This document shows, one piece after another, positions 3,001-26,094 of a stretch of 64,000 nucleotides of DNA. The position numbers and the translations under genes are program-made. The stretch's first letter is position 1, and each line of letters opens with the position of its first letter. The DNA is taken from positions 22,933,045-22,997,044 of the forward strand of contig NC_069127.1 in NCBI RefSeq assembly GCF_026914265.1. Reading direction: 5' to 3'. The DNA is from Mya arenaria (Eukaryota; Mollusca; Bivalvia; Myida; Myidae). The notes beneath the pieces are model-generated. The model was not told the origin of the DNA. It searched no databases and was given only the letters and a program-made list of their open reading frames with translations.

Positions 3001-4676
3001 TACCGCTTCTAGCAACATATGTGTACCAAGCTTGTTTGAACATCTTAAGACAGTTTTTGATTTTGGCCAAGGATTAAGATTTTACATGCTGGCAACACCA
3101 CTGCCGACGAGACCAAGGTTATGACAATTCTTTTTTCTTTGAAAAATAGACAAGGTAATAAAATGTAAAATAAAGTAATGTGCATAAAAAAAGATAATTT
3201 AAGTAACATATCAAAATTCACAACAACATTCAAGAAATATAGTAAAATGATATAACCAAGTCAAACATTCATTTCAAGATCTTGTAAGATAACCATGGGG
3301 TCAAAGACCCTGAAGCACCTTGCCCCAAAATAAAAATTTGCTTTTTATAAGCCCTTTTGAGAGCTCCAAATTTGAAACAAACTGGAGTGTCTATACAAAC
3401 AGCAAATACTGTAAAACCCAAAAGGAGCCACTTAACTTTTTTTAATCAGTTAATATATAAAGAAAATATATTTGAATTATTTGATTTTGGTCCCTGGAGC
3501 CATTGGATCTACAGACAAATCACATCTCTTTCTAAATCCGATTTTTTTCTATAATTGAAGGGTATCTCACCCCACTTAGGCAATCTTTTCAAGATTACCA
3601 TCAAAATGCATTCCCATAAACAGTTGAAATGCCACCCCAAATTCTAAGAAAACTAAAGTTAAAGGCAGTGCATACGAAAGCTGAACCAAACCAAGTATGG
3701 CTATAGTGCACTACACAACTTACCGGCATTATACTGATTCAACTGGTTATAAGTCATGTTCCACATTGGACTCTTTCCGCCTGAGAGCCAACAAATAATC
3801 AATCACAAACTGAGCTAAGCTAACCTGCTGAATTTCTTGTTAATATGTCACATTAAAATATATTTTCTTCAGAGACAATTGTTTCTGTTGTGTTGACAGT
3901 CACACAAACTTCTTCCAGTATTTGCTGATTTTTTTTTTATATATTTACTGCTGTTATCATTTATGGTTAAATGGTCAAAGTGGATTGAAAGATTTTCTTC
4001 TCTGTGACCGAATTCATAAGAGTAGATGTCAACATTTTTCAATCAAGAAACTAAGACTAACTTAGTAGCCAATTTCTCTGATGATATTGTTTGTACAGAT
4101 GGACGATTACAGCAAAAATGTTCCAAATGGTATAAAGGTCAACTATGTACTTATAAGCTTTACAATGCTGTATATTTAGGCAAAAATGCTAAATTTGGAT
4201 GCCAATAACACCATAAAAGCCTGGTAAAATGTAAACCGGTAGAACTTGCTCTTAACTAAAATATATGGCAGAAAATACACTTTAAACTTATTTGTGTTTT
4301 TGTTTTTAATTTGTCTAAAAACAGATGTAAAGTTGCCTTTTTTGAAATCCGTCAAGGCTCAAAAAGAGTACTTGAAATATTTGTTATGGTATAATTTTTA
4401 CAAATCTTCACCCAAGTGCAAAAACTCAACTGTACATAGAAATTGAAACAGATATTGAGTTCTAGCATAAAAGTGACAATATTTTACTCGGCATATGAGA
4501 AACCATCAAAATTATATGGAGTCACCTGGCATCCCAAAACCACATAATTGTACATAGAATACCTCAAAACATATGCGGATAGACCTTCTTTACTTTCATC
4601 ACTTGATTAATACATTACAATACCCTATACAAGCATAGACATGGAAGGATTCTCGTAATAACAAGAACTCTTACAA
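1..4676. other. Region downstream of the last placed ZDHHC exon
   Basis: No convincing exon. 2980-3160 is a dispersed bivalve-type repeat ('gtgtaccaagcttgtttgaa ... ttggccaaggatta'). A candidate exon-like stretch at 317-354 (minus; acceptor AATTGTAG, donor GTAAGCAT) would close the ZDHHC frame after a few codons if used, but support is weak. Confidence 0.4.
2245..2380. repeat. Small C-rich minisatellite
   Basis: Four to five units of about 24-30 bp, such as 'cctgacagcccagccccctg' + caac. It creates the proline/cysteine-rich start of an open frame (2234-2653), which I do not regard as a gene. Confidence 0.8.
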
Positions 4677-7600
4677 TTAATTATTATTTAAATTACCATT
4701 AGACGGTGGTAGTCGGCTGGATATAGAGCCGTCTGGTGACTGATAGCTAATCATATCATGTTTCGTCACCCCGTCCGTCTGCGTGTTTGTTCCCATACTA
4801 CTGGTTTGCTGGAATAGAATTATATAAATGTACTAACATGAAAATGGTGGCTCTTATTGTCAATTAACAGTTCATTCAAACCAATGTTAATTAATTCAGT
4901 TTATTTTGTGCTTATGCATCCCACTGATTGGCTGGAGTTTTACTGTAATATCACATCCCTCTTTAACTGCCATGTCCTGCCAAATACGGCACCTCATTTG
5001 ACTTGACTTTAGAATTCAGGCCACAAGCAAAACTAACAGAAGTTTTATGACACATGGCATGCTGTGATTAGATATGTCTGGGCTATTAAAGGGTGTCGGA
5101 GAGCAAACTGAGTTTATTAAGAAATGTTGAGACTTACAACCGAAATGGACCTGCGGGATATACTGATTACAACATTGGTACAGACTTATCAAATGTACTT
5201 TCATGGATATATATTATCAGAAGGTATGTGATGCATAATACGGTTTCAAATGAATCAATTTATTTCAGAGCGCTCTCGTTATGCTTTATTTTTGTGTACG
5301 AGAATAAAACAATGAAATATTTTGTATAATTAGCTTAATAATATTTTTTTATGACTGTATCCTTATCATACTTTCTCTTTAATGACTGCGGTAGAACCGT
5401 AGTAGTCCCTCTTCACCGACCCATCCTTGCCCATTGGGTGGACCTGCGCAGAATCGGGCATAATAAGCCCCGTGCGATCCAGCAGACTGTAAGATATTGT
5501 TAGCATATTGAAACATGTATGGTTAAAAATCTAAACAGTAAGGCATCTTGAACTAAAACTATTTATACAGGGCTCATCCTACCAGGCGACTTAGGCGATT
5601 AAGTCGCCCTGCCCGCGGCAACTTCGCTATTTTCTAAGATCAAAGCGAAGTCAACTTCGCCGACTATTTCAAAGATCAAAAAGTCGATATCGCTAAGAAC
5701 TAACGCTTGTCAAAACAGAGCGACTCCGCCTCCCGCCTGTAAGCTCGATTGACAAACAGCCAATCGTGTTAAACCTAGTAAATATGCTCCATTGACTTCA
5801 GCCAATGAGAACGCTTGTTTTATTCAATCGAGGCACGTGTTTGCACCATTGACTTTGTGTACATGTGCTACGTCATCGATGTAATAAAATTGTAAGGGAT
5901 TAATATTTACACTTGCCGATGTTTGTAAATGTCAATTAGTGCCAATTTGGATTTATACTTTATGACAATAGCGGTTTAAATGATGTGCATTGATGACAAA
6001 TGAACTTAATTGGGTGTGATTATCGCGAAGTTAGTGAGAAGGGCAAGTGCGAATCACAGTTCCAGGTTTGTTGTTGTTTTTTTTATTTCAGAAATGCTTC
6101 CATTATTTTTTTTTCTTCGAATGGTTCACATCAATATTCTATATACGAGATATTTTGGATTCTGTTGAATAGTAATCATGCTTTCTACGTGGCTTCTGCG
6201 GGATTCCCCAGGCCTGAAACGTAAAGCTGACGGTGTTGAAAGTGATGACATGATCGACAGTTCAAATAAGAAATCATTCAAAAAGTCAAATTATCAAAAT
6301 AATTTCAGTTGGTACAACGAAGATGCAGATAAGAATTGGCACTGCGAAGTTTGTAGAGGTGCTAAGTTGGACAACGCCTACGCCCGTGGACATGACCAAC
6401 CAGCAAAAACAACCAATCATCAGAGACATGGCTGGTGTAAGTATTTATTAAAACAATAGAAGCATTGCTTAGTCCGCAGATAAATCAATTCAAAGTGGTA
6501 TTAATTTTAAGGTGTCTGGCTTAATATATTTTAAAACATGTTGTAATATATGCCCAAATTATTTTAAATGACAGCTGAAAATGATGAGATACTGTGAAAT
6601 ATTTTGTGTATTTTCAGCAAATCAGCACAAGGCCGCCTTGGAAAAGACAGTTCTGAGTTCCCAGGAACCCATGAAGAAAATTGTACTGGCCAAACTGTCC
6701 AAGGATGACAAGCTTGGGGTCAAGCTCCTTAAGACTGCCTACCACCTGGCCAAGCGGGAGCTCCCCAAGGTGGAATTTCAGTACCACCTCCAGCTTGCCG
6801 GGGCCATAGGTGCTGATCTCGGCTGACCTTGAGACCTACATTGTGTAGACTGATCAAGTGTATAGTGCTTCTTGTTTTGAGAACTAGGATGTGATGATAC
6901 ATTGACTACTTTTTTGTTTTTTACAATTGATGTCATTTTGTTTGATTTCAGCTAGTTTTGTTTGTATGTGTGCATGATAGGTTTGCATGTAATAAAATGT
7001 TTGAAACTTTACTTTTTTTTTTAAAGATATATACAACAAATAAATTCCAACTAAAAACCAGTATGACTATTTTAAAACAATTTAAACACCTATTTAATTG
7101 CATAGAAAAGTTGTCCAGGGCACACCAGAACCCACCATTTGACATTTAAAATCTCAAAATTTTCCGACCTGCAAGAGGGGGAAACCCCCTCCAGCACCCT
7201 CCCCCGTTCTCACTTCTCCCTAAAATTTCTGTCTAGGATGAGCCCTGTTATATTTGTAGTGCATAGAATCAGTTTCCCCGAGTTATAATTTCTGTATTTG
7301 TTTATTAGTAACACATATCATTTTCAAAGCCTTAACATTCATAACATGTGATCAGTTTGCAATTATATCAATGTCAAACAATATAACAAATTTAGATCAT
7401 GTGTTATGAATAAAACGAATGTACCGTAGATGTCCTATTAGACATGCATGCCCTTAAAGACGCACAGGGGATCTTAATGCAGGTTTATTATCCGACTCTG
7501 AGGCTAAAACAATGATTACCTTACATCTTAACTTTAAAAATAAAAAGATGACAACAAGGCGGCAAACACACCTTCCACAATAGGTCCCCCTTAGCACTTT

Positions 7601-10600
7601 TTGCTCAGGTGAGCTAAAAATGAAATACATTTATTTGATAGTAAATGTATAATTAAGTGACACATACCTTGGAGGATTTGGTCCACATAACACGCTCATA
7701 CAATTTTTAAATATGGAACCATGGCTGTATGGATTGAAGTTTTCTTGATTTCGTTTGGATGAAAATGATCCTTTAATCTGAAAAACAATTATTTTGTAGT
7801 TATAGCTTTAATTGACAAAACATAAAATGTGAAACATTAAAAGCAATTGATGTGAGCACATAAAATTCAATGCGTATCAAATAACATTGAAAAATTCAAA
7901 TTTGCAATCAAACAAAATGGAATAAACTATGATAAAATATTTCAAGAATGCGTTGTCAATTCTAAAAGTGTGCCAGTTTATACCATATTGAGTTATGTTT
8001 TACATATGCTTGGTAAAAAACATGATACATGTATTACTTCATCTTAAACTACCATAATCCAATGGAAGAGGACAACATTTACAGTTACAACATAAAAAGC
8101 CACATTGCAGCGTATCCATACTCATAAAATATAAAATATTTTTTTATGTACAAGTTCTTTGTAATTGATGGCTGTTGTGGGACTCTCAGCTTAATGCCTT
8201 TTCATCCATTTTTCATCACAATAAACTTATATAGATAAAAATACATAGCTATGCTTCTCTCAGGTTCATTGATACTTTACTGCGAAATGAGATCCGGCCC
8301 CATCATCTGAAAATACTTAAGTCAAATCTCAATCTCATTTTACCACGTAAAAGCATATAGTGTTGTTCAATAACTCGCATGGTTTTTTTTACTTTTTGAA
8401 AACATATTTTCTCATAGAATGTTTATTGAAAGATTTTGACAATATGAATTGTACTCGAGTACATTTTTGGCTGTAGAAATTTCATATATATACCGCCTGT
8501 GCCTTGCAAATTGGGAAAAACAGTCCAGATTGGGAAAAATGTTAACCAGAACAAAATAGCAAATATAATGGCAAATATACATGTTTTCACCTTCTTATGC
8601 ATACATTTTGCTGTGAAAGAGTTAGTCTTGTCAAGACTTTGTTTATTTTTCAAGAAATTCATTGCTTTTGTATTCATCAACATAATCTGCATTTATCAAA
8701 TTGGGAAAATATTATCACTTTTTGGAAAAAATATATAACTTTTTGGGAAAAATGGACATTTTTTCACAAGGGGAAACAGCCTTTAGAAGGCAGTTAATTG
8801 CACCAAAAAAAAAAATCACTGAAAGGTTTCAATCAACATTTCAATAATAGAATGTGGTTTATAAAATGTGTAAAACATATATTTGTTTCATAAATTTTGA
8901 TGTTATATGGTCAAATGAGTTGAGATCGAGTTTGAGATTTGACTTAAGTATTTTCGTGATATTGGGGCCAGGTAAAAGTGGACCATCAATGTCAGGTGCT
9001 ATACACTTACATATACATCCCAAATACATATTTAAGCTTACTTTGTATATCAACCCAGGTATACAGATTGAATGTCATCATAGGTATATCAACCTTGGTC
9101 TAGACATACTTACATCTTCATTGGTAGTTTGTTGTGATGAGATCAGGTAGGAGTGGAAACCGGTCAGGCCGATCACCGACCAGACGGAGAAAAAACACAC
9201 AATCACCTCTATCACAGTGAATAAAGGTCAAGGAAATACAAATAATGGCAACATAAAGCAACGAAATCTACAGTAACCACAACATTTATCAGAAAAAAAG
9301 TATACATTAAGAGTATTAACCAAATATTAGCCAGGAGAATTTCTTTGAGATTCTTACTACATCACCTACCACTACTACATCCCTCATACCATTGTTCATT
9401 ATCTGCATAATTTTTCCTGTTGATCAATAAGGAGAATTGAGCTGACCTAGGTCAAGATCTGCTTATATAATTAAAAACTCCATCTTTCAAGCTGTAACAT
9501 TGTGTGAACAAAGACACAGCTAGTGTTCAGTCAAGACCGGAGTGTTTATTAACCTACATACATAGTACATTATCAGGCCCAAATATTTTAAGATACCAAA
9601 TGCATCTTTGCAATACATTCAATGTGTTATTCTGTGTCATGGAAATGATGCACAACTGGCCGTTGGGACTCTGGTATCATCTGAACACTTGCTGTGTATG
9701 ATTCATTATTACAATTGGTTTTCTATGTTACAAAGCCAAAATCCAAGATGCAAACTTAACAAGAGGGCCCTGAAGGCCCTGAATCGCTCACCTGATCCAA
9801 TAAAGACCATCAACAATAACATTCTGATCAAGTTCCATGAACATATGGTCATAAATGTGACCTCTAGAGTGTTAAAATACTTTTCCTATTATTTGACCTG
9901 GTGATCTGGGTTTTGACCGCACATGACTCAGATTCAAACTTGGCCTAGAGCTAATCAATATAGACATTCTGACTAAGTTTCATGGACATACAGTCATAAA
10001 TGTGACCTCTAGAGTGCTAACAAGCTTTTCCTATGATTTGACCTAATGACCTAGTTTTTGACCACAAGTGACCTAGATTTAAACTTGACTTAGAGATTAC
10101 TAATATAAACATTCTGACCAACTGTCATTAAGATACAGTTATAAATGTGACCTCTAGAGTGTTAACAAGCTTTTTCTTAAATTTGACCTGGTGACCTAGT
10201 TTTTGACTGCACATGACCCAGATTCGAACTTGGCCTAGAGGTAATCAATATAAACATTATAAACCAAGATTCCCTATGATACAGTCATAAATGTGACCTC
10301 TAGAGTGCTAACAAGCTTTTCCTATGATTTGACCTTATGACCTAGTTTTTGACCGCACATAATCCAGTTTTAAACTTGACTTAGAGATAATAAATGTAAA
10401 CATTCTGACCAACTTTCATGAAGAAACCTTTATAAATGTGACCTCTAGAGTGTTAACAAGCTTTTCCTTTAATTTGACCTGGTGACCTAGTTTTTGACCG
10501 CACATGACCCAGATTCAAACTTGGCCTAGAGCTAATTAACATAAACATTCTGACTAAGTTTCATGAACATACAGTCTTAAATGTGACCTCTAGGGTGCTA

Positions 10601-13600
10601 CCAAGCTTTTCCTATGATTTGACCTGGTGACTTAGTTTTTGACCGCACATGACCCAGATTTAAAGTTGACATAAAGATTATTAATAGAAACATTCTGACC
10701 AACTTTCATGACGATACAGTCATTAATGAAGCCTCTAGAGTGTTAACAAGATTTTCCTTCAATTTGACCTGGTGACCTAGTTTTTTACCGCACATGACCC
10801 AGAATCGAACTTGACCTAGAGAGTATTAATATAAACATTCTGACCAAGTTTCCTGAAGATACAGTCATAAATGTGACCTCTATAGTGTTTACAAGCTTTT
10901 CCTTTAATTTGACCTGGTGACCTAGTTTTTAACCCCAGATGACCCAATATCGAACTCATCCAAGATTTTATTGAGGGTAACATTCTGATCAAGTTTCATT
11001 AAGATAGTGCCCAAGTTGTGCCCTCTAGAGTGTTAACAGTCAAATTGTTGATGATGGACGACGACGATGGAGGACGACGGACACAGGGCGCTCACAACAG
11101 CTCACCTTGAGCACTTCGTGCTCAGGTGAGCTAAAAACACAAACTTTTCCCTGGCCTTAGCAAGCAAAAAATTATACAAAACCCTTATTAATGATTTTTC
11201 AAACATCCAAATGATCGATGAAGAATAATATTACAAAAGTCAACGATTAAACTTGGTCCAGCCAGCTGCCCATTCAATGATCTGTCATGAACAGCCAGCT
11301 GCCCATTCAAAGATCTGTCACAAACAGCCTGTGGCTCATTCAAAGATCTGTCACGAACAGCCAGCTGCCCATTCAATGATCTGTCACGAACAGCCAGCTG
11401 CCCATTCAAACATCTGTCACGAACAGCCAGCTGCCCATTCAAACATCTGTCACGAACAGCCAGCTGCCCATTCAAACATCTGTCACTAACAGCCAGCTGC
11501 CCATTCAATGATCTGTCACGAACAGCCAGCTGCCCATTCAATGATCTGTCACGAACAGCCAGCTGCCCATTCAAACATCTGTCACGAACGGCCAGCTGCC
11601 CATTCAATGATCTGTCACGAACAGCCAGCTGCCCATTCAATGATCTGTCACGAACAGCCAGCTGCCCATTCAATGATCTGTCACGAACAGCCAGCTGCCC
11701 ATTCAATGATCTGTCACGAACAGCCAGCTGCCCATTCAAACATCTGTCACGAACGGCCAGCTGCCCATTCAATGATCTGTCACGAACAGCCAGCTACCCA
11801 TTCAAAGATCTGTCACAAACAGCCAGCTGCCCATTCAATGATCTGTAACAAACAGCCAGGCGCCCATTCAATGATCTGTCATGAACAGCCAGCTGCCCAT
11901 TCAAAGATCTGTCACAAACAGCCAGGGCATTCAAAGATTTGTCGCAAACAGCAACCTGCCCATTCAATGATCTGTCACGAACAGCCAGCTGACCATTAAA
12001 AGATCTGTCACATGCAATAACAAGAACTGCACACTTAAAGCCACCTGTTCACAGGAGAAATTCACAAATTAAATAGTTTTTTATTTAGTTCAGTTGTAGG
12101 CCTTGAAATAACTACTGATAAATAAATGTATTCCATATTACACCAAGTTTCCATTACATTTACAATCACAACGGTAAAAAAAAAATTACCAGTTAATGCA
12201 CACAGTATTTCTATTTATACCTACAATCTAGCTACAATGGATAGCGTAAATAAAGGCTAGTGATAAAAAAAACAAATAACAAACAGAGCTATCTATCTAT
12301 ATTAATTAATGTTCACTGTTACCAAGGCGATAAAATTACAAAAATCTCAGAATTGCTTTAGCAACAATTAAATATTTGCTTTAACAGGAGATTAATTACT
12401 CAACCAAACATCCAAATAAAGCAACATACAAATCTGTGATTGTGGTAACGAGTCACATGACTTGTTGACGTCTGTCTGGATGTGATACAATATGGGCAAA
12501 TGATTTTTGTAAAAAAAGGCAATTTAAGGTCATTGTTTTGTTGACTTCCAATTAACAATGAAAAATAGTTGGGGGTAAGGACATTTTGATTTTTCCAGAA
12601 TTTTATGATGATCTATGACCATGCAGCCCTATACCTGCAAATTAAACGGCGAGTAAATGTACAACATCATAGCAATCAAAGCAGCACACATATAAGCGCA
12701 AAATAAAAAAAGCAGCATATTAGCTACGGACACAGCAATCAACAAAGAGAGTGACAACATTATGCACTCACATCTTCATTAGTCGTCTGCTCACTGGCAG
12801 CCAGGTACGTGTGGAAGCCAGCCAGGCCAATTATTGACCAGACGGAGAAAAAGCAGATTATAGCCTCCACTATGGTGATGCAGTGTTAAGGGTTACATGT
12901 CCTCAGAATAAAAACTAAATTACTAATAAATAAAATAAATCACTGTTGTTTAGTAATAGCTGTAAATTATTAACTTTCTTTGAGAGTTGTTCATCTTACT
13001 AACTCAAGCCCATGATTCAATGGCCTCTTACCCCGAGTTAGCCACAATAATGTGCCTTTAGGGACCTTTTTTTAACATTTGGGTATTCATTTTGTTCCCT
13101 CAAGCATACAGTTGCCAAAACAAAAATTGTCAAAAACTCTGAAGCGGCTGTTTATATGGACTACCCCTCAGGTACAATTAAAAAAGACTTTGTTCAAACT
13201 GCCTTACAATTTGAGGGGTAAGCAGGTTTGTTGTTTTATGTCTTCTTAATCCACAAATTACATAATGAAAAACAAATAAAAATATGACAATCAGAGAGGC
13301 TTAAAAGAAATCGAGTCGCAAGTGTTTTTGAGAGCCGGTTGGATAAGGCAATATTGACTAACGCCAAAACAGGTATGCTATAATTGTGGCCTGAGCACTA
13401 ATTGTTGCTTGAAGTAAAATGTGTAAATTATTATGGCTGTCAATATAACAATCGCCTACTAGAATTGGAAATGTTAAATGTTGTTTGAAGAAAAATGTGA
13501 AAATTATAATGGCTGTCAATTCAATAATCGCCTGCCTACGAGAAATGGAAATATATTCATTTTTCTATTTTTGTTACCAGCATGCATTTATCAGTGTTAG

Positions 13601-16600
13601 GAGACTCTGTTTCATATGACGATTATTTACATTAACCTTTAATCAATGGCTCTAGATTGTCTATTTCAGCAATAAAATATTTATTTTAGTAAATTTTAAG
13701 TATAACGACTCATCAATATCAATTAATAATTTTAAGCTTAAGTAACAGAAATTCCAGCTGAAAGTACTGAAACAGTCATCATGTATACACGTAAAATAGT
13801 AAAAGGGATTGGTGATGGGCTCTTTGCTAGGGGAAAAATAACGTCATTTTGAAAAAAGGGGAAAAATACTAACGTGATTCAAATTGTTTTTAAACCCTTT
13901 AGAGGTTTGAATGCTCCACCAAAAAAATGGGATTTTTTTACAAACGTAGTGGAAAATTATATACTTTTTCATGAAGGGAATAAGGCCAAATTTGGGCCCC
14001 AAAATCGGCTGTAAAAATCCTTATTATGACTAAATTCTCTCACTAGACATGTAGAACCTTCCCATAAAAGGTATTTTTAATCAGCCTGACCATCCTCTTA
14101 GTAACCAAGCATTATCTAATTCCATAAGCTTCTAAGTTCAGTGATCAATTCTCCATATCTTGCCCATGCCTTCATTGCGTAATAAATGTGATCCGTTTTT
14201 AATAAAACCTACATTAAGCCAGAGTGACTGCAGAATTAATTTGGAAATAAATATGACGATATCGATTTTTTCTGCCAAGACATTAATAAAGGGAATATTC
14301 ATAAAGCAACATTTTATAATAAGGTAGCTGAAATGGTATTTTTTAAGTCAGTGGACCCATATTGATAAAACTTAATTTCAAAAAGTCTTTTCTTAACTTA
14401 ATTTTAAAAGTCTTATTCTTAAAACATTTGAAATCATATTAAAAAAAGTGTTTCTAACATAAAAAGTTTAGAATATTCAATAAAAGTTTTTTTTCAGATA
14501 TTATAGGTTTATTATATAATATAACCATTGAAATACTTAGCTTAAGCAAATGACTGAAGTAAAAAAGAGATACTTAGCTTAACAAAATGACTAAGTTAGG
14601 AAGAGATACTTAGCTTAACAAAATGACTAAGTTAGGAAGAGATACTTAGCTTAACAAAATGACTAAGTTAGGAAGAGATACTTAGCTTAACAAAATGACT
14701 ACCGTAAGTTAGGAAGAGATACTTAGCTTAACAAAATGACTAAGTTAGGAAGAGATACTTAGCTTAACAAAATGACTAAGTTAGGAAGAGAAACTTAGCT
14801 TAACAAAATGACTAAGTTAGGAAGAGAAACTTAGCTTAACAAAATTAGTAAGTTAAGAAGAGAAACTTAAGTTAGAAAGTGACTTAAGATGTTTTATGAA
14901 TACCAAACCGGTTATGTACCAGAGACACGCAACTAGAAACAGGACCATATTGGTTTTCTTTGTGTTCGCTCATTCATTCAATCTCATATCCGAACAATAA
15001 CCAGTAGTTAGACCTTTTGAGAGTGCAACAAGTAATTAAAACAATATCTCAGAGGTATTGCAGTTATCGCATGTTACATATTGAACTCTGTTCATGACAA
15101 TAATGTACGAAACAGTGACTAGTACACCAAACACTAGTGATTGACATTATATCTACTTTGCACTCTGTGGTCGTTGTGTATGAATTCAATAACTTGTGAA
15201 GTGGAGTCATTAACTATAGCATGTTTATTTCATGCACAGGTGTTCAGTTATATATACCAACTGCCTCAAACAGTTCATGAGCCTGTGAACAAAAAATAAC
15301 AGTTTTCAAAGTCATATGATAAAAAGAAGCAACTTTTTAACAAACTGTAAAGAAATAGTCAACATGTTAATTTCTTTTTCCTTGTCAAAAAAATAATAGT
15401 AACAAGCTGTTGAATGCACTGTATTACGTAAAACAAGGCCTTCTTAAAAATGTACATAGTTGTAGTTGTTCTGACTGAGTATAATGCACTTTTAGTAGGG
15501 TTGAGGTCAAAATATGACTTCATGTTAGAGTCTGTTATCTGCAAATTTTAATGATCAACCATGATAATTATATTGAAAACCAAAAGGCAATAGGCAATTT
15601 CCTATTTTGGATATGTTGGTAAGGCTAAAAAAAAGTGGTTTGGTTAGGGTTACATCCTTTTCAAAAACAGGTTAGGTAAGTAGGCTGGGTTTTTTCTTAG
15701 GTTTTATGTCTGAATGTTATGATTATCATTCGAGAACTGTGGAAAAGTATTCTTGATCTGTATGATGTTTTAGGTTTTAAACTACATGTTGAAGCACAAA
15801 ACAAGGGTAAGGTCCACGCCTATTTTGTAGGTAGGGTTGGGTAGCCTGAACCAAATGTTGTTTTTTTAAGCCTTACATACTTCATATGTTTCTGAGACAT
15901 CCGTCATAAAACATCAGCCTGCAGACGTATCAAAATGTATACAATATTGATGCTATGATGCACACCATCTATTCATATTCTCATCTATGTATAATCCCCC
16001 ATTGCTCTAGGGTCCCTACGGATGCTTGTTTTTATATTGATCTGTTGTCTGTCTGTCTAAATATTGATATGCCACTGTTGGTCCGTTTTTTCTTCGATCT
16101 TTACAGCAGTTCTCATAAATATTCAAGGAAGATGATTAGTTATATCAGAGGGTGAGAAATGAATCTATGTTAGTCACGCCAAGCATTCTGCTACATTTCT
16201 GTATATTCTGACATTTCCTGGTAAATGTCATTAATGGGATGAAAACATTTCTCGGAAATATTACGCAATTCATTTCTGCTTCTTTTAAAAAACATGATGT
16301 TATCAATATTTAAATGTAAAGAACTTATACAATCTGCTAAAATATCTATTACACGGTTTGAAATATTACAAATTCCCAGGAAGTGTATACAATAACACAT
16401 GCGCTGTGCAGTATTACCTACATCGCACATCACTCGGTACATGGTAAACTGTTAGTCTAGGGTTTAAGCCAGGCTTTAGAAATGACAGGATGCTGCTAAA
16501 AAGGGACAAGCTTATGGAGAAAAGGGCACATTGTGTCAGGCTTTGAAAAAACTGAACATTATGAATTTCACAGAAAATGTCAGGAAATGTGATTTATTGA

Positions 16601-19600
16601 AGTTACATTTGCCTGTAACTGCAAAATATGTTAATGCATATTTTAAGTTTTAATCAAATCAAAAGAATTATTTGATAATCTGAAGCATTTAACTCTATAG
16701 AGGCAGAAGGGTGCCCATGTTGGTCTCCATGAGGGCAAAGGATGCAAGCAAAGAGGGCAGGGTGTATCACCCTTACGTAACTCTTCAGCTTAAACTTGTT
16801 ACTGTTGCCCATGAGACCAGGGACACAGTTCTCCATTCTGGATTACAGGTATTACTTCAGATACTATGATATCTATTAGAAGTCAGAACAAAATAAAACA
16901 ATACTTCTCTCATCAATATACCCATATAAAGTTAAAAAAATAAAATCACCACGCCTATTTAATCTCCTTCAAATCACATTATAACAATCGGTATAACAGC
17001 AGATTCATACACAGTAGTTGGATGGGAACTCCTGCTTTGGTGCCGTATAACCTATAAATATTTTAGTGACATTGAACCTTAAATATTTATCAGTTTCTTC
17101 AGATTTGTCAAAGGGTCACTATTACCAACGTTCTAGCATAAAATAACTATGTCTCACTGCAGTTCACAAATTGAGAAAATCTCAAATTGAAGAAAACAAT
17201 TTATTTAGGCATAATGTCACTATTTTTTAAAGGTCATATGACACCAAAGCAAAGCAGGAGTTAATTCCCATCAAACTACTGTGGATGCATAATGTACTGC
17301 GTGCATCACGACTCCTTTAATATTGCTTCCCACAACTCAACAACTTCAGTAAAAGGATATCTAGCCGGGGAGTCCCTCATTGCATGGAGAAAATTGTCGG
17401 CTTGTGAACCTGAAATTAGCACAGGAAAGGCACTTACAGGGAGATGATAATTTCATCAGAGCAATTCTGAGAAAAGTGTTTATGTTTTGCAAATATTTCT
17501 CATTATATTGTCACAATTCAAAGAGAAATATTTGCAAAACACTTTTTGTCATGACTGGAAAACGTTGTTAACATATTTCTAGCACTCCCATATAAAAAAA
17601 ATCTTCCACATGACAAAAAGGACAAACAATAGCATTGTTTATACAAACTCATACCTGTTCAATATGAAATGCCATACAAACATTGATTGCCCATTAAACT
17701 TAACAAATATCAATTTTAACAGAATTATCACTTTAAGAAAGTCAATTGAATTCCATATTAAATACTTGTTAATGTATATACATGTAGTCTCACTTGGTAA
17801 TATTTTACAGTGACTCTGGAATTAAACATAACTCTGGGACTAGAAGGTTTTAAATATATGAGACAGCTAGACTCATCACTTTTCAAAAATTGACTTTTCA
17901 GATTCCAGTAAGAAGGATGCTTATACCATTTTTCAATACGCAGAACACGCTTAAACATTTTAATACTCTGAGACTCAAAGATTTTAAATATAACAGACAG
18001 CTAGACTCATAACTTTCCAAAATTGACATTTCAGATTCCAGTGAGAATGCTGCTTATACAATGTTTCAATACTTACGCAGTATAAGATGTGTGAGCACGC
18101 AGGCGAAAATGTAGATACACAGGATAGACAAGGAGAGAATAAACAAGTAGAAGTAGCGGTAGTTTCGCTTCCCCACACAGTTCCCCAGCCACGGGCAGTG
18201 GTGGTCAAATCGCTCTGAAATATAGCAACAGATGTGGTCAAAATGTTCTGAAATATGGCAACAGAGGTGGTCAAAATGTTCTGAAATATAGCAACAGAGG
18301 TGGTCAAAATGTTCTGAAATATGGCAACAGAGGTGGTCAAAATGTTCTGAAATATGGCAACAAAGGTGGTCAAAATGTTCTGAAATATGGCAACAAAGGT
18401 GGTCAAAAAGCTCTGGAAAAAAGGCAAGAGATCAGATCAAAACACTCTACAATATGGCAGCAGAGGAGGTCAAAATGTTCTGAAATATGGCGACAGAGGA
18501 GGTCAGAATGCCTGAAATATGGCAACAGATGGGGCTAAAACGCTCTGAGGTATTGCAACGGTTAAGGTCAAATTGCTCTGAAAACAAACGATGTGGTAAA
18601 AAAGCCTGAAATATAGCAACAGATGTGGTCAAATATGTGAGATATTGCATCAGATGAGTTCAAAATGCTCTGAAATATAACAACGGATGTGGTCAATATG
18701 CCCTGAAATATAACAACGGATGTGGTCAATATGCCCTGAAATATAACAACGGATGTGTTCAATATGCCCTGAAATATAACAACGGATGTGGTCAATTTGC
18801 CTTGACATATAACAACGGATGTGGTCAATATGCCCTGAAATATAACAACGGATGTGGTCAATTTGCCTTGAAATATAACAACGGATGTGGTCAATATGCC
18901 CTGAAATATAACAACGGATGTGGTCAATTTGCCCTGAAATATAACAACAGATGTGGTCAAGTTGCCCTGAAATATAACAACAGATGTGGTCAATATGCCA
19001 GGGCTTCCATTAAGAATTGGAAACTGGAAGTATGAACTTCCTGTCAATCAATTTTGGAAGTTTTACACTGAATGATGAAGTAAAAATCTAATGAATATAA
19101 TATCTTTTTCAATTTTTTTTCAACAAGTATATTCAAAATAAAAAAATGCAACTTTAACTTACCGTATATTATATAATAATTCATTTTACTTAAAAACAGT
19201 TAAACTGATTGAAATTTTGACTAAAAAGTAATACTGACGAAGGGTTTTGATATTTTTAACTTCCAAGCTTTCTACTTCGGAAGGAATCAATTTTGGAAGT
19301 TTTAACCCATTTCTAGGGAGTAATATACTTCCAAACTTCCTTTAATGGAAGCCCTGATATGCCCTGAAATATTGCAATAGATGTGGTCAATATGCCCTGA
19401 AATATGGCATCAGATGTGGTTAATATGCCCTAAAATACTGCAACAGAGGTGGTCAATATGCCCTAAAATATAACAACGGATGTGGTCAATATGCCCTGAA
19501 ATATGGCAACAGAGGTGGTCAAAATGCTCTGAGATATGGCATCAGATGAGGTCAAAATGCTCTGAAATATACCAACAGGTGTAGTCAAAATGCCCCGATA

Positions 19601-22600
19601 CATCTAGGTAGCAATAGAGGTAGTATGAACACTCTGAAATATGGCATAAGATAAAGTCAAAACACTCTGAAATTTAACAACAAATGAAGTCAAAAAGCTC
19701 TGAAGTAGTACAACAGATGTTGTCAAAACACTCTGAAATACAGAGACAGATGTGGAAAAAACACACAGAAATATGGCAACAGATGAAGTAAAAATGATCT
19801 GAAAAATAGCTACATGTACCGATGTGTTTAAATCAATCCGATATTTATAGCCATGGATATCGTCAAACAGGTGTTAAATATGGAGTGGGGAGAACTTACC
19901 CATACAGACCTACAGATAAGAACTTTCAATATAACCGAATGACTTTTGCATTTGGGTAATCAGGCTTTTGCATTGGGTACATGTTATTTTTACCTAGAGA
20001 TTTGGAAGCCAATTGGATAAAGAGGAAAACTTGCATGTTTCATAAAATATGGTTAAAATATAAACCTACATGTATTCAATTGGAGAAGTCATGTTTGCAA
20101 GGAATGTTTCTGAATTTGAATCAATGCGATGAGCAATGCGTCACATTAATTTTTCCTGCAGTTTTCATTCATTAATTGAGTAATGATTATTGGTAAAAGC
20201 ATATAACCTGGAGGATATGTACATTGTATGTTCCTTTAACAATTGTGTACACAAACATTTTGCATGTGTTTTCATAAGCTAAAAAATCATTTTAATTGAG
20301 TTTTCTGTAATCTGAATTACGTAATTAAGCAAATACACTGCTCATCAGGAGCTCTGAAATAGAATTAGCAGTAGTTTTTCTTCCTTCACAGTTCCGTTAA
20401 GCCAAGGTTTGTTCTAATCAAAACTCACTAAATTAAAAGCTATAGCTTGGGTCACTGGAAAAGTCCGAACACTTGATCAATATTAAGGATGATAAAATCA
20501 TTTAGAGATGTATCACTGATCAGTAGCAGCCAAAAAATTGCCTCCGAAATGTTCCTTTACAGTAAATACCAGGTACAACATTGAATGAGATGTCAGTATA
20601 ATGATCTAACAAGAATTATTTAAAAAAAAGTCTGATTAAAATCTCCACCTGCATTGATCAACAATGTTTCCTGCTGTTGATTCCAACGTTTCATGGCTGT
20701 TCCCTACGGAATTTATTGTCCAAACAATCTGTGTAATTATTTTCAATACTGGCATGGAACTTTGCATCTTATCGATAAAGTATATTCCATTTTATTTACT
20801 TCTTGCCCATAAATGTTGAAGCTCTGAGAAAAATTACTGACACAAACAATTATTGATGCTGACCAAATGTCTGTCTACCTTACTTTACCACATTTTGATT
20901 TCAGTTCAGACTCAACCTATGGATACTAAGCACAACTCTTTTGAATCTTTTAAATATATGGATTGAACAAACAGATAGAACTAGAACTCAGTGAAGCAAA
21001 TGTTTCACCTTTCACATGCGCACATATTTTTTCAAATAAAGGCCAAAGGGACCTGAATCTTTGAAATCAATATATTTGCTTCTGACCACAAACAATGTGC
21101 ACACCAAGTTTTAAAACTCGACACAAAGTCATCTAAAAGTATTTGATTGTGAACGCCGAAATTGTTTTTCATAAAATTCACCATGACCTTGACCTTTGAC
21201 CCCAAAACAACAGGGTCCATCTTCAGACTATTAATAACATGCATATAAAGTTTGAAAACCTTATACCACGGTACTGAAAGCATTTCTTAGGTGTCAGCCA
21301 TGTAGTGCAGGCGTCACAACAATTATGTCTATGTTAGTCACTAACTGAATCAATCGCAATACCCACTTACAAATGTTGGAGTCTGAGTCATAATCTAGAC
21401 GTCCATTGATTTAAGACAAATTCATAAACATACAGAAAGGAGAAATATAATTATCTAATTGGAAATATTCATGCCAGATTTAACTTTGATTTATGAATCA
21501 GAATAATAATGGATCTATCCAACATGGCATTCATTTTTTACATTTTCATTTGCATGAACTACGCAGTCTGATTAACAAGCCCCCAAAACCAGAAGTCCTA
21601 GCAAAAGTTTCAACATCTCAACTCCTGTACTTCCTTTAGTGACGAACCCTGCATTTGACTTGTACATATAAAATACCGGTAGTCAGGTTTTAGCTCTTAG
21701 ACAAATGCTTTATAAGATTTCTTACGTCAAATTAGCTGCTAATTTAATTTCTGTAAGGAAACTTAGGGAGATTCCTCTTAATAAGGCCAGGTTATTGATT
21801 AGAGTATTTCCTCTGAACTGAAGTGCCATGGTATTGCCTTACAAACCATTGATTATTCTACCAAGACTATAAAACCACGTAAATGGATGAGTCTCAAAGA
21901 AATTGGAAGATGGATTTCCAAACAGCATAGAAAGGCCATCATGAATATATCAGACCTTTATATTTAACTTCTGCTGCAGAATCTATTTTCTATTCAAACA
22001 TTGAAAGAACCATACTCTCCATAAACGTCTGGAGTTTTTGCTGTGGTTTGGGCACAAGATAGAAAGACATATGCATAAGCAAATTGAAGAAAACAACAGA
22101 ACAATTAAATTTTCCCTATCTGACAGAAAATTTCTGGTGTAAATTTTACATTTTAAAAATCACATAACAATGTAATGTACAATCATGCCATTATGAGGGT
22201 AATTATCTTCATGTCTTCAGAATTGCTTTTAGTGGAAAAGTACTGAATTACTGCATGTAATATAGCTGTTAAATTTATGGTATTACGTGCACTGCGTCAC
22301 ATTACTTTTACAATTACATTATGGTTTCAGTATTCCCTACTCAACAGAAAGTCTACAAAAGTTTAATGTACATTATTTTCTAACCAAGAGCACCTTATAA
22401 GGCATGCAACATGTGTTTAAATACATTACTTGAATAAACAAACAATCAGCACATTGCTTGCAGCTCTGAATCGCAGAGAATATCGCTTTTTGATCATTGA
22501 AAAATCTAAGCAAATCTGACTTTGCTGTGATCTTTGAAAAAATGTAAAGTTGCCTCGGTCAAGGCCACTTAGTCACTCGAGTGCCCTGGGGGATGAGCCC

Positions 22601-25600
22601 TGCCTTAGTGTAAGCCAATGCTTATCTATTGTTGTTATTACATTCAACCAAGGGGCATAATTATCAAAGCCAGATTTATGAGCTTCGCTATACATGTGTG
22701 TACAAGTGTACCAAGTTTCATCTGAATATCTTAAAAGGATTTTGCATGATAAAAAAAAGTCAATGATACACCATTTGCTGTCAAAGAATAACACTAAACC
22801 TGACCTTTTTTCTCCGAAAAGCAACTTGAAAGTGTTAAAATATTCAACAGAATACAAGTACAGACAGTCTATGTATTTTTCCAATAGATCAATCATCATG
22901 ATTTTCATTACTCACCAACACAGTTATCACAAAGGCTGCAGTGTGAGGCTCTGGGAGGTCTGAATATTTTACATGTGAAGCAGTACTTCAACTTCACCAC
23001 CTGACCTCGAATCAGCACCTCCTTGGTGCGTGGCGGAGGGCGGTATGCTCCTGGCACTGATGGGTTGGGGATATCTGTGGACAACAAACAATGTGTGACA
23101 ATCGTGAAACACAAGTTACATGTATGAAGTCAAGGGATCAATGTGAGATATTTATTAAACAGTTTGAACTGTTATTGTCCTTTGATAAAGATTTAGTTCA
23201 GGGAAGGCAGTAAGCGAGACTAAGCCACATGTTTATTAATCACTTGATTGCAATCAAGAGATAAAAAAATATTTACATACTTTGAATAGATGTTTTAAAT
23301 CTATAAAAAAATAAAAACATTGAACATTAAAAAACCTCTTAGACCATAATAATGTCTTAAAGCATTTATGCATTTTCAACTTAGTTTTAAATTATACTTA
23401 ATAACTTATGAGGTCCTTCTTTTTCAAAGTTTTCAAAAAATGTATACCTCCAACAATCTCTAGACATTCATACCAGCTGCACAGTATCATGAGTGTGTTC
23501 AACCCATCAATCAATCATAATCAAGCATACCGATCTGCCTCTCAATGTCAGCTGCCTCGTCTGAAGTGGCTCTAGGGATGACACCCGGGTCACTGAAGCT
23601 GGTTCTGAACAGGGTTGCCATGACGAAGATGAACAGTGCCCCGCCCACAGCTGGAATCGCTGGTGTCACATGCACAGCCAGGTATGGACAACTAGAAGGA
23701 TTTGAACATGGAACATTAAAATACCTAGTTTTTTATAAAGCTTCATGTCCAGTAGCTAAACAGGGCTTTGCCCCCTATAAACTGACCCCAACAAAGATGC
23801 TGCACTGGACCCACAAAAGGGCCTTATGCCTTTAACCACTCGCTAAGGAAGCCTTTTGTTCAAGTGAGTCCTGGACCACCGGCGTAAAGTGAACTTTGAA
23901 ATACCCAGAGGTAACACTGATAAATGTAAATATAGATATACTTTGCAAATCTCTAGTAATTTCTTTAAACAAACATTCAATCATGTTCAACCAATTGTAT
24001 ACCATTTTTCAAGTCAATTTCAGTTGGATAATTATAGTCTAAATGTTCCCTGTAAATGTGACTTAAAAAGCATGTAGCTGATATTTCTGGAGTTCAATAC
24101 GTAAACATTTTTAAGATACCAAGTTTGGTGATAACTGGTTGTACATTAGCCAACTTTTGAGAGCGGACACTGTAAATACAGCTTTGGCCAATTCAAGGGT
24201 CATAGCTCTTTAGTGACTGAGGCGACATGGCTGGTTATCAGTAATCTGACCAAGATATTCTGCCCAAACGCAGATAGTAGTTTTTATTGAATCCCCTGTC
24301 AATTATAACTTTGATGTCCTTTCTTCTTTATTCATACAAACAGCGTAAAACTAGATAGCTCAAATTATGAATGTTTTGTTTTTGACCATAAAATGTGCTG
24401 CGTCAGTCTTTGCCTTAATTTTTTTTCACCATTTGTCCTTTCAGGCAAGTAATTTAAGAAAACTACTTGCCCAAAAACAGTTTTACTTGCCCAAAATAAC
24501 CAATTCATGCATAAATACACGAAAGCCAATATTTCAATATAATAATAACGTTCAATCGGGATTTGTGAATTGTTGCTAAGGAATTATGTAAACAGAGGGA
24601 TCTAAATTTCGTAAAAATGCACTTGCCGGTTCGGGCAACCACCTGGGAATTTTGACTTGCCCGAAACAGTTTTTACTTGTCCAGGGCTTCGGGCAACCCA
24701 GTTACGACAAAGACTGCTGCGTTGGTTAAAATTGACCTGCGAAAGACTGTTCTTGGACAAAATGTCCCGCACCCCAAAAGCTACAGCAATAAATGAATTT
24801 TAGCGACAGCATACTGCAAATGGAAAATGAATGTATTACCCGACGTCTTGACAATTTCGTCCAATTTTTTTCTTCAGAAACAGGACAACATAAAAGGGGA
24901 TTATTTCTACAACATTGCAAATAAAAATTTTTTTACGACAATTGATGTTGCAATAAAATGCCAAATTTAATGATGTTGATTTATTTTCTAATTTAGACCC
25001 CTAATATGTTTTATGTCAATCAAATTGACTCATATTTCCATATCAGAGAGCCACAGGCCCCATTCCTGAAATGGTGAGAGAACACTGACCAACACAAATA
25101 CACACTAAGCTGTCAAATGACATCAGACCCATAGAGAAAGATGAAAAGGTAGCACTGAGTATTTCTAGCAGTTAAAATGGGTGCACGGCATGATGCTATG
25201 GACGAAACGTCTGGCAAAAACACTCATTGGGGAAACAATAAAAACTTTTTTAGATATGAAATGGAGTAAGATTTCCACCTGAAAATCATTGGAAAGACAG
25301 TTCTGTCTCAGATCAGAAACAATTAATTTGAACTAAAAGAGAGAGCCTTTACATGCAAGATACTTATCAATACAAGATAATAAAATGAGAGAAGGCACAA
25401 AAAACACAATGGACTAAGACCATAACCTGCCACCATGTAATAGCCTCATAAGTTCAAATATTTGATCATTGCAAGAGAACATGCTTGAAGGTGATTCACA
25501 CAATAAATGAATAACTTTGCTTTGTATTAACTTTGCTGTTTTATTACACCAAAGAGAAGTTGACTTCCCAGACCACTTTATCTGTAGCCTTTCTGGAATT

Positions 25601-26094
25601 TTCACATTAGGTAAGAGTATATGATTTACATGTAGCATTTGAACAGAGATGAATTTTGCCCAAAAATTGGTCAGGAAAAAATACAGATATTGATTGGACT
25701 AGTAAAACTCAGATGTGGTGCTATTGTAATTTATCCCCGCAGTTGCAGGTGCACTTTTCTACTTAATTATTTTGTGCAGGATTACTTCTCTCCCTGATTC
25801 ATTTAATTATTATACAGCGCTTCTATGTGTGTGAAAAAATGCTTTTAAATTTGTATCATTGAAATATATTCCAAATAGAACTTACTCAAAACCGAAAAAT
25901 AATCCACATGTTGCAATAATTAAAGTACAAGTAAAGTAAAATATTCCATTTTGTCGAGCCATCATTATACGACCATTACAGCAGAACTTGTTTTTGCCTG
26001 GAAACACTTCCCATTTACGAACATTCTTGGGCATCCTCCCCTCCTGCTTAGCGGGAGAGTCAGATGTGACAGGCCTGTATGACTGGTCTTTCAT
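4677..26094 (-). CDS. ZDHHC14: Palmitoyltransferase of the ZDHHC9/14/18 group (multi-exon)
   Basis: Membrane S-acyltransferase that transfers palmitate to cysteines of substrate proteins, normally at Golgi or plasma membrane. Coding exons as read on the minus strand: 25886-26094 (start ATG at 26094), 23531-23691, 22916-23074, 18077-18214, 17361-17409, then either 12772-12874 or 9114-9216, then 7668-7777, 5372-5486 and 4677-4808. All junction phases agree. In order the protein has a first membrane helix (about residues 51-68), a second helix, the SDPGVIPRA motif, the cysteine-rich domain ending [14 protein letters not shown] with the catalytic DHHC, a third helix, then a fourth helix and the TTNED (TTxE) motif in the alternative exon. 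With either alternative exon the length is about 391 residues. Vertebrate family members, from memory, run about 360-490. The last exon may instead splice at 4696 to further exons I could not place; as read it ends in a short Asn-rich tail. The split between ZDHHC9, 14 and 18 is not certain; the TMEM242 neighbour favours 14. Confidence 0.9.
5568..7247 (+). mobile_element. hAT-like DNA transposon with short two-exon gene
   Basis: 1680-bp element in a ZDHHC intron, opposite in strand. Terminal inverted repeats CAGGGCTCATCCTA (5568) and TAGGATGAGCCCTG (ends 7247) start with the CAGGG typical of hAT elements. The left end contains nested AAGTCGCC / GCGAAGT palindromes. The right end has the G-rich 'gagggggaaacccc' stretch common in such mollusc elements. 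No clear 8-bp target duplication remains. The only gene inside is at 6178-6826, too small for a transposase, so the element is probably non-autonomous. Confidence 0.75.
6178..6826 (+). CDS. Zinc-finger protein fragment (TTF-type / C17orf113-like) inside the transposon
   Basis: Two exons, 6178-6436 and 6618-6826, joined at GTAAGT and TTTTCAG give 155 residues. The N-terminal third is basic and polar. The middle has a TTF-like zinc finger: [18 protein letters not shown] followed by [17 protein letters not shown]. The rest ([19 protein letters not shown], then [16 protein letters not shown]) resembles the linker that precedes the catalytic domain in hAT-derived C17orf113/KIAA1586-like proteins. 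The DDE and dimerisation regions are absent. It may be a truncated transposase kept for DNA binding, or a dead remnant that happens to be intact. Splicing is inferred from motifs only. Confidence 0.6.
7565..7618 (+). mobile_element. 3' end fragment of the Helitron-like family
   Basis: 'agcactttttgctcaggtga' followed by gctaaaaa is the same terminal hairpin seen at 11105-11135. Only the tail is present, 48 bp before the ZDHHC exon at 7668. Confidence 0.6.
9114..9216 (-). other. ZDHHC14: ZDHHC alternative exon 'b' (duplicate of exon 'a')
   Basis: 103-nt exon encoding [19 protein letters not shown], then [15 protein letters not shown]. It starts after an AC acceptor with a perfect U12 branch site (TTCCTTGAC) 10 nt upstream and ends in a strong U2 donor (GTAAGTATG). 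Frame and length equal those of the exon at 12772-12874, and both join in phase to the exon at 7668-7777 ([11 protein letters not shown]). No stop or frame damage is present, so it looks like a functional alternative rather than a relic. Confidence 0.9.
9217..9235 (-). promoter_or_regulatory. U12 branch site and AC acceptor for exon 'b'
   Basis: Minus strand reads TTCCTTGAC (exact U12 branch consensus), then CTTTATTCAC, then the exon. The spacing of 10 nt equals that of the other alternative exon, so the whole acceptor module was duplicated with the exon. Confidence 0.92.
9758..11135 (+). mobile_element. Helitron-like non-autonomous element with ~145-bp internal tandem repeats
   Basis: Begins with the hairpin GAGGGCCCTGAAGGCCCT followed by CGCTCACCTGAT. 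It carries about nine diverged ~145-bp units, each with TGTGACCTCTAGAGTG, AACAAGCTTTTCCT and GACCTGGTGACCTAGTTTTT. It closes with a GACGACGACGATGGAGGACG stretch and the terminal hairpin AGCTCACCTTGAGCACTTCG / TGCTCAGGTGAGCT then AAAA. Minisatellite core plus terminal hairpin matches the non-autonomous Helitron-like elements known from bivalves. It lies between ZDHHC exons 'a' and 'b'. No protein is encoded. Confidence 0.7.
11250..12012. repeat. 33-bp minisatellite, about 23 copies
   Basis: Unit approximately ccagctgcccattcaatgat + ctgtcacgaacag. Copies differ mainly at the 'aatgatc / aaagatc / aaacatc' position. It lies in the intron between the two alternative ZDHHC exons. The long frames on both strands (11-residue periods) exist only because 33 is a multiple of three. 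Confidence 0.95.
12772..12874 (-). other. ZDHHC14: ZDHHC alternative exon 'a' (fourth membrane helix and TTxE)
   Basis: 103-nt exon encoding the segment [19 protein letters not shown], then [15 protein letters not shown]. It is preceded by an AC acceptor rather than AG, with a U12 branch site 10 nt upstream, and followed by an ordinary U2 donor (GTGAGTGC). Using the nearby AG instead would put the exon in the wrong frame, so the AC end is supported by the reading frame. It is a full-length, intact homologue of the exon at 9114-9216: 25 of 35 residues match, counting the serine codon completed at the junction, and the changes are conservative. Confidence 0.9.
12875..12892 (-). promoter_or_regulatory. 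U12 branch site and AC acceptor for exon 'a'
   Basis: Minus strand reads CCCTTAAC, then ACTGCATCAC, then the exon. The branch motif is close to the U12 consensus TTCCTTRAC, the branch-to-end spacing of 10 nt is typical, there is no polypyrimidine tract, and the intron ends in AC. Confidence 0.88.
14543..14885. repeat. 36-bp minisatellite, about 9 copies
   Basis: Unit approximately gatacttagcttaacaaaat + gactaagttaggaaga, very uniform in the centre and decaying to the right. It lies inside the ZDHHC U12 intron. Confidence 0.93.
16455..16790 (-). repeat. Dispersed repeat, inverted partner of 36525-36830
   Basis: Shares blocks such as 'agggtgc', 'gtctccatgaggg', 'aattatttgat/aataaattattt' and 'gaatttcacagaaaatgt' with the reverse complement of the second copy. 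It is an unnamed interspersed family. Confidence 0.6.
17348..17360 (-). promoter_or_regulatory. U12-type (AT-AC) 5' splice site
   Basis: On the minus strand the exon ends GCTAG and the intron begins ATATCCTTTTACT. This is the consensus minor-spliceosome donor ATATCCTTT. There is no GT or GC donor here that keeps the frame. Confidence 0.92.
17361..17409 (-). other. ZDHHC14: 49-nt ZDHHC exon ahead of the U12 intron
   Basis: Short exon encoding [16 protein letters not shown] between a normal AG acceptor (TGCTAATTTCAG) and an AT-type donor. The peptide matches the loop after the third membrane helix of vertebrate ZDHHC14 as I remember it (RSQ..FL.A..DSPAS). It links exon 18077-18214 to either alternative exon without changing frame. 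Confidence 0.88.
18215..19850 (-). repeat. 33-bp minisatellite derived from the ZDHHC DHHC-exon splice acceptor
   Basis: About 35-40 units, clean from 18215 to 18998 and more decayed from 19357 to about 19850, interrupted by a MITE. On the minus strand each unit reads roughly GCTATATTTCAG, AACATTTTGACCACATCTGT. The true acceptor of the exon at 18077-18214 reads GCTATATTTCAG, AGCGATTTGACCACCACTG. The unit therefore spans the intron-exon boundary and the array directly abuts the exon. Copies near the exon are the most similar to it. Long frames here on both strands result from the 33-nt period. Confidence 0.9.
18999..19356. mobile_element. hAT-like MITE nested in the 33-bp minisatellite
   Basis: Ends are inverted repeats CAGGGCTTCCATTAA and TTTAATGGAAGCCCTG, with further inverted pairs inside (ATCAATTTTGGAAGTTTTA occurs near both ends in a partly direct arrangement). 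Flanking minisatellite sequence ATATGC is present on both sides, consistent with a 6-8 bp target duplication. There is no coding potential. Its insertion is younger than the array around it. Confidence 0.8.
19851..22459. other. ZDHHC intron sequence
   Basis: No exon found. 21030-21295 is a bivalve-type dispersed repeat with 'gaccttgacctttgacccc'. The remainder is AT-rich unique-looking sequence. Confidence 0.55.
22460..22602 (-). mobile_element. Solo end of the same hAT-like family
   Basis: The sequence ends GGGGATGAGCCCTG and, read in reverse complement, follows the first ~140 bases of the element at 5568 (the palindromic AAGTCGCC / CTTTTTGATC-TTTGAAA block). It is an inverted, 5'-end-only copy in another intron of the same gene. 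Confidence 0.7.
24404..24714. mobile_element. hAT-type MITE with exact 8-bp target duplication
   Basis: 311 bp flanked on both sides by TGCTGCGT (24396-24403 and 24715-24722). Ends carry the inverted motif AGTCTTTG / CAAAGACT, and internal 'cttgccc' / 'gggcaag' blocks are arranged as inverted pairs. An 8-bp duplication is the hAT hallmark. The element lies in the first ZDHHC intron. Confidence 0.82.

Follow-up and report, generated by a model that had tools for sequence, protein, structure and literature searches.

The gene described here belongs to the ZDHHC9/14/18 subfamily and lies on the minus strand of a 64,000-nucleotide (nt) stretch of the Mya arenaria genome (positions 22,933,045-22,997,044 of contig C6; this whole stretch is termed the window, and its coordinates are used below unless a contig is given). 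Two of its exons, 6a and 6b, very probably form a tandem-duplicated, mutually exclusive pair that is gated by the minor spliceosome. Mutually exclusive splicing through U2/U12 incompatibility is, as a principle, already known and not new; what the locus offers is a clean natural "exactly one" gate, in which a single U12 donor faces two U12 acceptors and the exon after each acceptor ends in a U2 donor. The elements of this gate are the following:

17361..17409, minus strand: exon 5, 49 nt, terminating in the U12 donor
17351..17360, minus strand: U12 AT-type donor ATATCCTTTT, 0 mismatches to RTATCCTTT
12885..12893, minus strand: U12 branch site of exon 6a, ACCCTTAAC, 2 mismatches, core CCTTAAC intact, 8 nt before the AC
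12875..12876, minus strand: AC acceptor of exon 6a
12772..12874, minus strand: exon 6a, 103 nt, U2 donor GTGAGT, peptide identical to Dreissena X3 (P0002)
9227..9235, minus strand: U12 branch site of exon 6b, TTCCTTGAC, perfect, 8 nt before the AC
9217..9218, minus strand: AC acceptor of exon 6b
9114..9216, minus strand: exon 6b, 103 nt, U2 donor GTAAGT, present in RefSeq Mya X3 (P0001)
7668..7777, minus strand: exon 7, common acceptor TTTTTCAG of U2 type, best U12 branch match with 5 mismatches

The intron that follows exon 5 has the features of a U12-type AT-AC intron, i.e., a ATATCCTTT donor and a TTCCTTRAC branch site close before an AC acceptor, and the consensus used for these signals matches that quoted in a passage of PMC6259924. 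ATATCCTTTT, directly after exon 5, is a perfect U12 AT donor, and the consensus RTATCCTTT is matched with 0 mismatches at 3 of 127,982 positions. Exon 6a is preceded by ACCCTTAAC-ACTGCATC-AC and exon 6b by TTCCTTGAC-CTTTATTC-AC, with the same 8 nt between branch site and AC, and the AC of 6b is the only one among 7,215 that has a perfect TTCCTTRAC within range. The donors downstream of the two copies, GTGAGTGCAT (6a) and GTAAGTATGT (6b), are both ordinary U2 sites (they depart from the U12 donor consensus at 7 and 5 positions, respectively), and the remaining eight acceptors of the gene show 3 to 5 mismatches to the U12 branch site. Each copy sits between a U12 acceptor and a U2 donor, as is the case in U2/U12-incompatible clusters. 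An earlier note on this DNA had described exon 5 as ending in a U12 AT donor, two homologous 103-nt exons as following an AC with a U12 branch motif, and each of them as ending in a U2 donor; these readings hold, as do all of the coordinates. An in-frame stop lies within each U12 branch site, immediately before the exon, and none of the AGs found in the first 30 nt of 6a or 6b is in frame; an in-frame AG that could replace the AC is thus absent there. Exon 5 and its U12 donor are also flanked by inverted repeats (17003-17290 and 17483-17541; arms of 29 nt, 1 nt apart, and of 26 nt, 236 and 167 nt apart), which are possibly mobile-element remnants or splicing-relevant hairpins.

Genes for components of the minor spliceosome are present in the host: the Mya genome contains U12 small nuclear RNA (3 matches, 99.7-102.9 bits), U4atac (2 matches, 80.3 and 81.5 bits) and U11 (2 matches, 99.5 and 85.1 bits). 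Molluscs are described, in a passage of PMC10639083, as showing a relative enrichment in minor introns. The signals in the DNA suggest that in vivo this intron would be removed by the minor spliceosome.

The joining of exon 5 to 6a to 7, or of 5 to 6b to 7, preserves the reading frame; 6a joined to 6b, or exon 5 joined straight to 7, meets stops, as was anticipated by the earlier claim that including both copies or skipping both would break the frame. In the proposed mechanism, the duplicated unit would have brought along its U12 acceptor in front and its U2 donor behind. The U12 donor of exon 5 would then pair solely with a U12 acceptor, that of 6a or that of 6b, and the U2 donor of the chosen exon would pair solely with the U2 acceptor of exon 7. 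The inclusion of both copies would need a U2 donor to be joined to a U12 acceptor, and the inclusion of neither would need a U12 donor to be joined to a U2 acceptor; since both would be barred by splice-site class, the arrangement would permit exactly one copy, with the frameshift as a backstop. The class rule had previously been invoked against the inclusion of both copies, and to that extent it stands, yet it was stated incompletely, for the mismatch between the U12 donor and the U2 acceptor of exon 7 also bars the skipping of both. To our knowledge, there is no route by which a U2 donor is joined to an AC acceptor. Exon skipping is not seen at minor introns, which a review, in a passage of PMC3584512, ascribes to a general U12/U2 incompatibility and to how few genes carry several minor introns. 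Incompatibility, and not a trans-acting regulator, would accordingly be what enforces the exclusion of 6a and 6b, as far as splice-site sequence can suggest it.

The annotated proteins offer a view of the products. Three protein searches, of each of which the best 120 matches were listed (out of 3,836, 205 and 1,097), gave 236 distinct proteins, and 14 chosen protein pairs were compared within and outside of the 35-residue exon-6 segment. RefSeq Mya X3 joins exon 5 to 6b at the AC, and Dreissena X3 (P0002) holds the Mya 6a peptide exactly. Pairs with one copy or the other and the rest unchanged were found in five other molluscs, three of them without any other difference: Ostrea edulis X7/X6 (6/35 substitutions in the segment, 0/450 outside), Mytilus edulis X7/X5 (6/35 and 0/412) and two UniProt records of Magallana gigas (5/35 and 0/396), all without gaps. 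The other two are Mytilus trossulus X2/X4 (7/35 and 0/412, with 17 gap columns elsewhere) and Pomacea canaliculata X6/X2 (8/35 and 0/452, with 31 gap columns elsewhere). These five pairs, together with the junction in Mya X3, support the earlier proposal that only one of the two exons can be included. None of the 236 listed homologues holds two exon-6-like segments, as judged by motif, and three of them (P0053, P0054, and P0154) are without a segment matching the exon-6 motif. Several listed records are long open frames on contigs of 1.5-2.8 kb, and since these contigs are far shorter than the gene, they probably represent spliced RNA.

Among the remaining pairs, two of the 14 have identical exon-6 segments within one species, and two include Mytilus edulis X8, which shows a third segment along with 5 further differences (residues 404-409) and 38 gap columns elsewhere. 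Three M. edulis records (P0022, P0017, and P0023), placed on a contig of one and the same length, carry three different exon-6 segments, so that this species seems to have gained a third copy of the exon; in the Mya window, no third exon-6 copy was found by tblastn of the exon peptides. Babylonia P0036/P0047 was rejected as an isoform pair, because 98 differences outside of the segment indicate two genes, and so was the cephalopod-like P0012/P0015, in which the segments differ and 53 differences are present elsewhere too.

The two Mya exons are identical at 70 of 103 nt and 25 of 35 residues, they are equal in length and phase and both are intact, as is seen in tandem exons that are used exclusively, and no significant similarity between them extends beyond ~6 nt past the exon end. 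Synonymous divergence (dS) is 2.9, which is near saturation, nonsynonymous divergence (dN) is 0.22 and their ratio is ~0.07. The 6a peptide is identical at 35/35 residues in Dreissena X3, at 34/35 in Patella and one Mytilus form, and at 33/35 in Ostrea X7, one Magallana form, Haliotis and Solemya. Both the low dN/dS and the near-identity of 6a in these seven molluscs agree with the earlier claim of selection on both copies. Since 6a is closer to the peptides of distant molluscs (33-35/35) than to 6b (25/35), the duplication is probably old. Other molluscan segments in the same table match Mya 6a at 25-31 of 35 residues and cannot all be typed. In all 10 comparisons made among five species, identities summed over like forms were higher than those summed over crossed forms. 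The a/b labels were set by the analyst, species recur across comparisons, neither M. edulis X5 nor M. trossulus was included, and the difference stems mainly from the a-a term. The exon-6 tree, built on 35 columns, resolves nothing, as 0 of its 24 inner branches were starred. The comparison across molluscs that had been suggested for dating the duplication makes it probably older than the divergence of these bivalves and perhaps older than that of bivalves and gastropods, judging from peptide identities.

The age of the U12 acceptor itself may be approached through Solemya, whose predicted protein P0043 is without the exon-5 residues and reads upstream of exon 6 instead (19 residues). This upstream stretch is compatible with a TTCCTTRAC located 7 nt ahead of an AC. 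When 20,000 12-mers were drawn at random from the fetched proteins, 106 could hold the motif in range, and 11 of these also end in T. The simplest reading would be that the gene predictor, having no AT-AC introns in its repertoire, extended the exon backwards across a U12 branch site, which hints that the U12 acceptor may be old among bivalves. If AT-AC ends proved common to oysters, mussels and snails, there would be a concrete reason in this gene for keeping a minor intron, because the loss of U12 identity would break the gate and selection would act against it; this bears on the open question of why minor introns persist. The minor intron would, at that age, have been kept for perhaps more than 500 million years. 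A far bolder version would be a pan-molluscan switch of Cambrian age, in which minor-spliceosome chemistry alone guarantees a single version of the fourth transmembrane helix (TM4) from bivalves to gastropods, with three exons in Mytilus edulis and regulated control of enzyme specificity, and for this version we hold the chances to be even.

A number of observations weigh against the exclusive, minor-spliceosome-gated use of 6a and 6b or its wider distribution. Exclusive use is indicated here by sequence signals, reading frame and annotated proteins, and the isoform records are predictions. The Mya 6a isoform was not found as a protein record, although clustering at 90% would hide such a record. 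Two of the five pairs, those of M. trossulus and Pomacea, vary in length elsewhere, which means that other alternative parts of these proteins vary too. The branch site of 6a has 2 mismatches outside of the core, a match equalled or bettered at 214 of 7,215 ACs (3.0%), and, taken alone, it is the weakest element in the sequence-based case. The donor of exon 2, GTATGCTTGA, departs from the U12 donor consensus at only 2 places, a match equalled or bettered at 545 of 127,982 positions; the intron that it opens ends at the exon 3 acceptor, which is without a U12 branch site (4 mismatches). As for distribution, Mya b matches the b forms of Ostrea, Magallana and Pomacea at 28, 27, and 26 of 35 residues and Mya a matches the same b forms at 29, 30, and 29, so that Mya b is no closer to them, and the AT-AC state of this intron outside Mya is indicated solely by the indirect hint from Solemya.

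It might be argued that exclusion is achieved mainly by frameshift and decay, by trans-acting repressors or by competing RNA structures, the U12 signals being inherited and without a gating role. The exon length of 103 nt is not a multiple of three and both forbidden products run into stops, inverted repeats on both sides of exon 5 could act as structures, and in human 60% of clusters hold exons of a length not divisible by three and 0.79% are U2/U12-incompatible, according to a passage of PMC5740500. Against this stands the fact that the donor and both acceptors are of U12 class, with AC ends, and the general incompatibility of U12 and U2-type sites described in part of PMC3584512, so that we regard this explanation as unlikely. 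A still smaller chance, which we would put at very low, is that one copy is non-functional or hardly used and has persisted by chance; 6b-type peptides do look more varied than 6a-type ones, and for Mya itself only the 6b isoform was found as a protein, yet both frames are intact with dN/dS ~0.07 at near-saturated dS, the 6a peptide is kept at 33-35/35 from Dreissena, Mytilus, Ostrea, Magallana, Patella and Haliotis to Solemya, and both types of segment are annotated in five species. Steric hindrance, with the 6a donor lying too near the 6b branch point, is a known mechanism (57 human clusters, 9%, have <50 bp between donor and branch point, as given in a passage of PMC5740500), but here ~3.5 kb separate the 6a donor from the 6b branch site (12771 to 9235), which refutes it and leaves it a negligible probability. 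Gating of the exon pair by splice-site class remains the preferred reading.

As for the protein, exon 6 encodes residues 239-273, and TM4 was placed at 237-265 in an AlphaFold model used only for this purpose (mean predicted local distance difference test score 56, the membrane helices being its confident part). The best Foldseek match of this low-confidence model is ZDHHC9/GCP16 (8hf3; E 1.4e-22, root-mean-square deviation 9.2). Ten residues differ between 6a and 6b, nine of them within TM4, and these are mostly I/V and small-residue swaps. The earlier note had expected the swap to change both TM4 and the TTxE motif, of which only the former is borne out: the motif, TTNED, lies inside exon 6 and is identical in both copies. 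The catalytic DHHC exon (exon 4) is common to both isoforms, as had been stated. The swap would most likely retune the packing of TM4 near the acyl-chain cavity or the partner interface, with DHHC and TTxE untouched, and should tune rather than remove activity; the property affected would be the preference for acyl chains or substrates, or else stability. Such naturally occurring versions of TM4, in a ZDHHC9-type enzyme that is otherwise identical, would be useful for studying the role of this helix in substrate and acyl-chain choice.

Several known systems use related logic. A passage of PMC5740500, where the proposed mechanisms are credited to Letunic et al. (2002), reports five U2/U12-incompatible clusters of mutually exclusive exons in human (0.79%), in which site class likewise blocks the joining of two copies; the Mya pair differs in being found in a ZDHHC gene, with AT-AC ends and in a mollusc. 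In MAPK8/9 (JNK) exons 6a/6b and in TMEM87A/B, minor and major sites also choose the alternative exon, as described in parts of PMC8329584 and PMC3584512. However, there the introns are interlocked, and a U12 donor and a U2 acceptor compete (PMC8329584, in the passage concerned), whereas in Mya one U12 donor chooses between two U12 acceptors with a U2 donor behind each exon. Intron 4 of ZDHHC8 is also a U12 intron of a ZDHHC gene, conserved from human to fly, but that is another gene and its ends are GT-AG; the passage on it in PMC2831892 mentions no duplicated exon. ZDHHC9 (8hf3) and the ZDHHC9/14/18 subfamily share family and fold with the Mya enzyme. The vertebrate homologues among the listed matches show one segment form per protein, no systematic search for a/b pairs having been made there. 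Among the papers listed by literature searches on this gene, none deals with the 6a/6b pair, judged by title and start of abstract.

The gene model places 11 coding exons in the window, with 6a and 6b counted separately, and starts with an ATG at 26094; exon borders were placed by eye. The genome assembly comprises 1.216 Gb in 18 contigs. Of the introns that lie entirely in the window, only those preceding 6a and 6b are not GT-AG. The first 385 residues of RefSeq Mya arenaria ZDHHC9-like isoform X3 (P0001) equal the window isoform with 6b; X3 also has a C-terminal exon, ~2 kb beyond the edge of the window. Membership in the ZDHHC9/14/18 subfamily is shown by the DHHC cysteine-rich domain, the TTxE after TM4 and an NPY-type motif, and the closest solved relative is ZDHHC9 (8hf3; sequence E 6.8e-140). 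The other exons, with transmembrane helices (TM) numbered, are:

25886..26094, minus strand: exon 1, ATG and most of TM1, in agreement with the P0001 start; helix taken from the structure model
23531..23691, minus strand: exon 2, TM2
22916..23074, minus strand: exon 3, start of the cysteine-rich domain, PF01529 piece
18077..18214, minus strand: exon 4, catalytic DHHC and most of TM3, common to both isoforms
5372..5486, minus strand: exon 8
4697..4808, minus strand: exon 9
3724..3780, minus strand: exon 10, probable cassette

Exon 10 is missing from Mya X3, and Dreissena X3 has residues homologous to it. The intron before the DHHC exon carries a 33-nt minisatellite (18201-19808), the unit of which resembles the 3′ splice site and the initial bases of the exon itself, TATTTCAG-AACATTTTGACCAC, and which appears to have arisen from this intron-exon junction. 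Between 19830 and 18150 there are 29 TTTCAG-like sites, the real acceptor counted in, and the six YAG sites nearest upstream of the latter are open and in frame, so they could add 11-residue units before the DHHC. The intron between 6a and 6b is filled for more than half by two large tandem arrays, 9818-11038 (145-nt units) and 11259-12011 (33-nt units). Elsewhere in the genome, a diverged ZDHHC9/14/18-like paralogue (L001, C13:30134817-30135191) holds DHHC and TTNE in one open frame, with DHHCPMVSNC and an unusual TM4, and is probably an old intronless copy. DHHC matches also occur in equal-score pairs ~0.5-1 Mb apart (C3:6.94/8.01 Mb, C8:4.53/5.00 Mb, and C2:28.7/29.8 Mb), which would represent recent segmental duplication or uncollapsed haplotypes.

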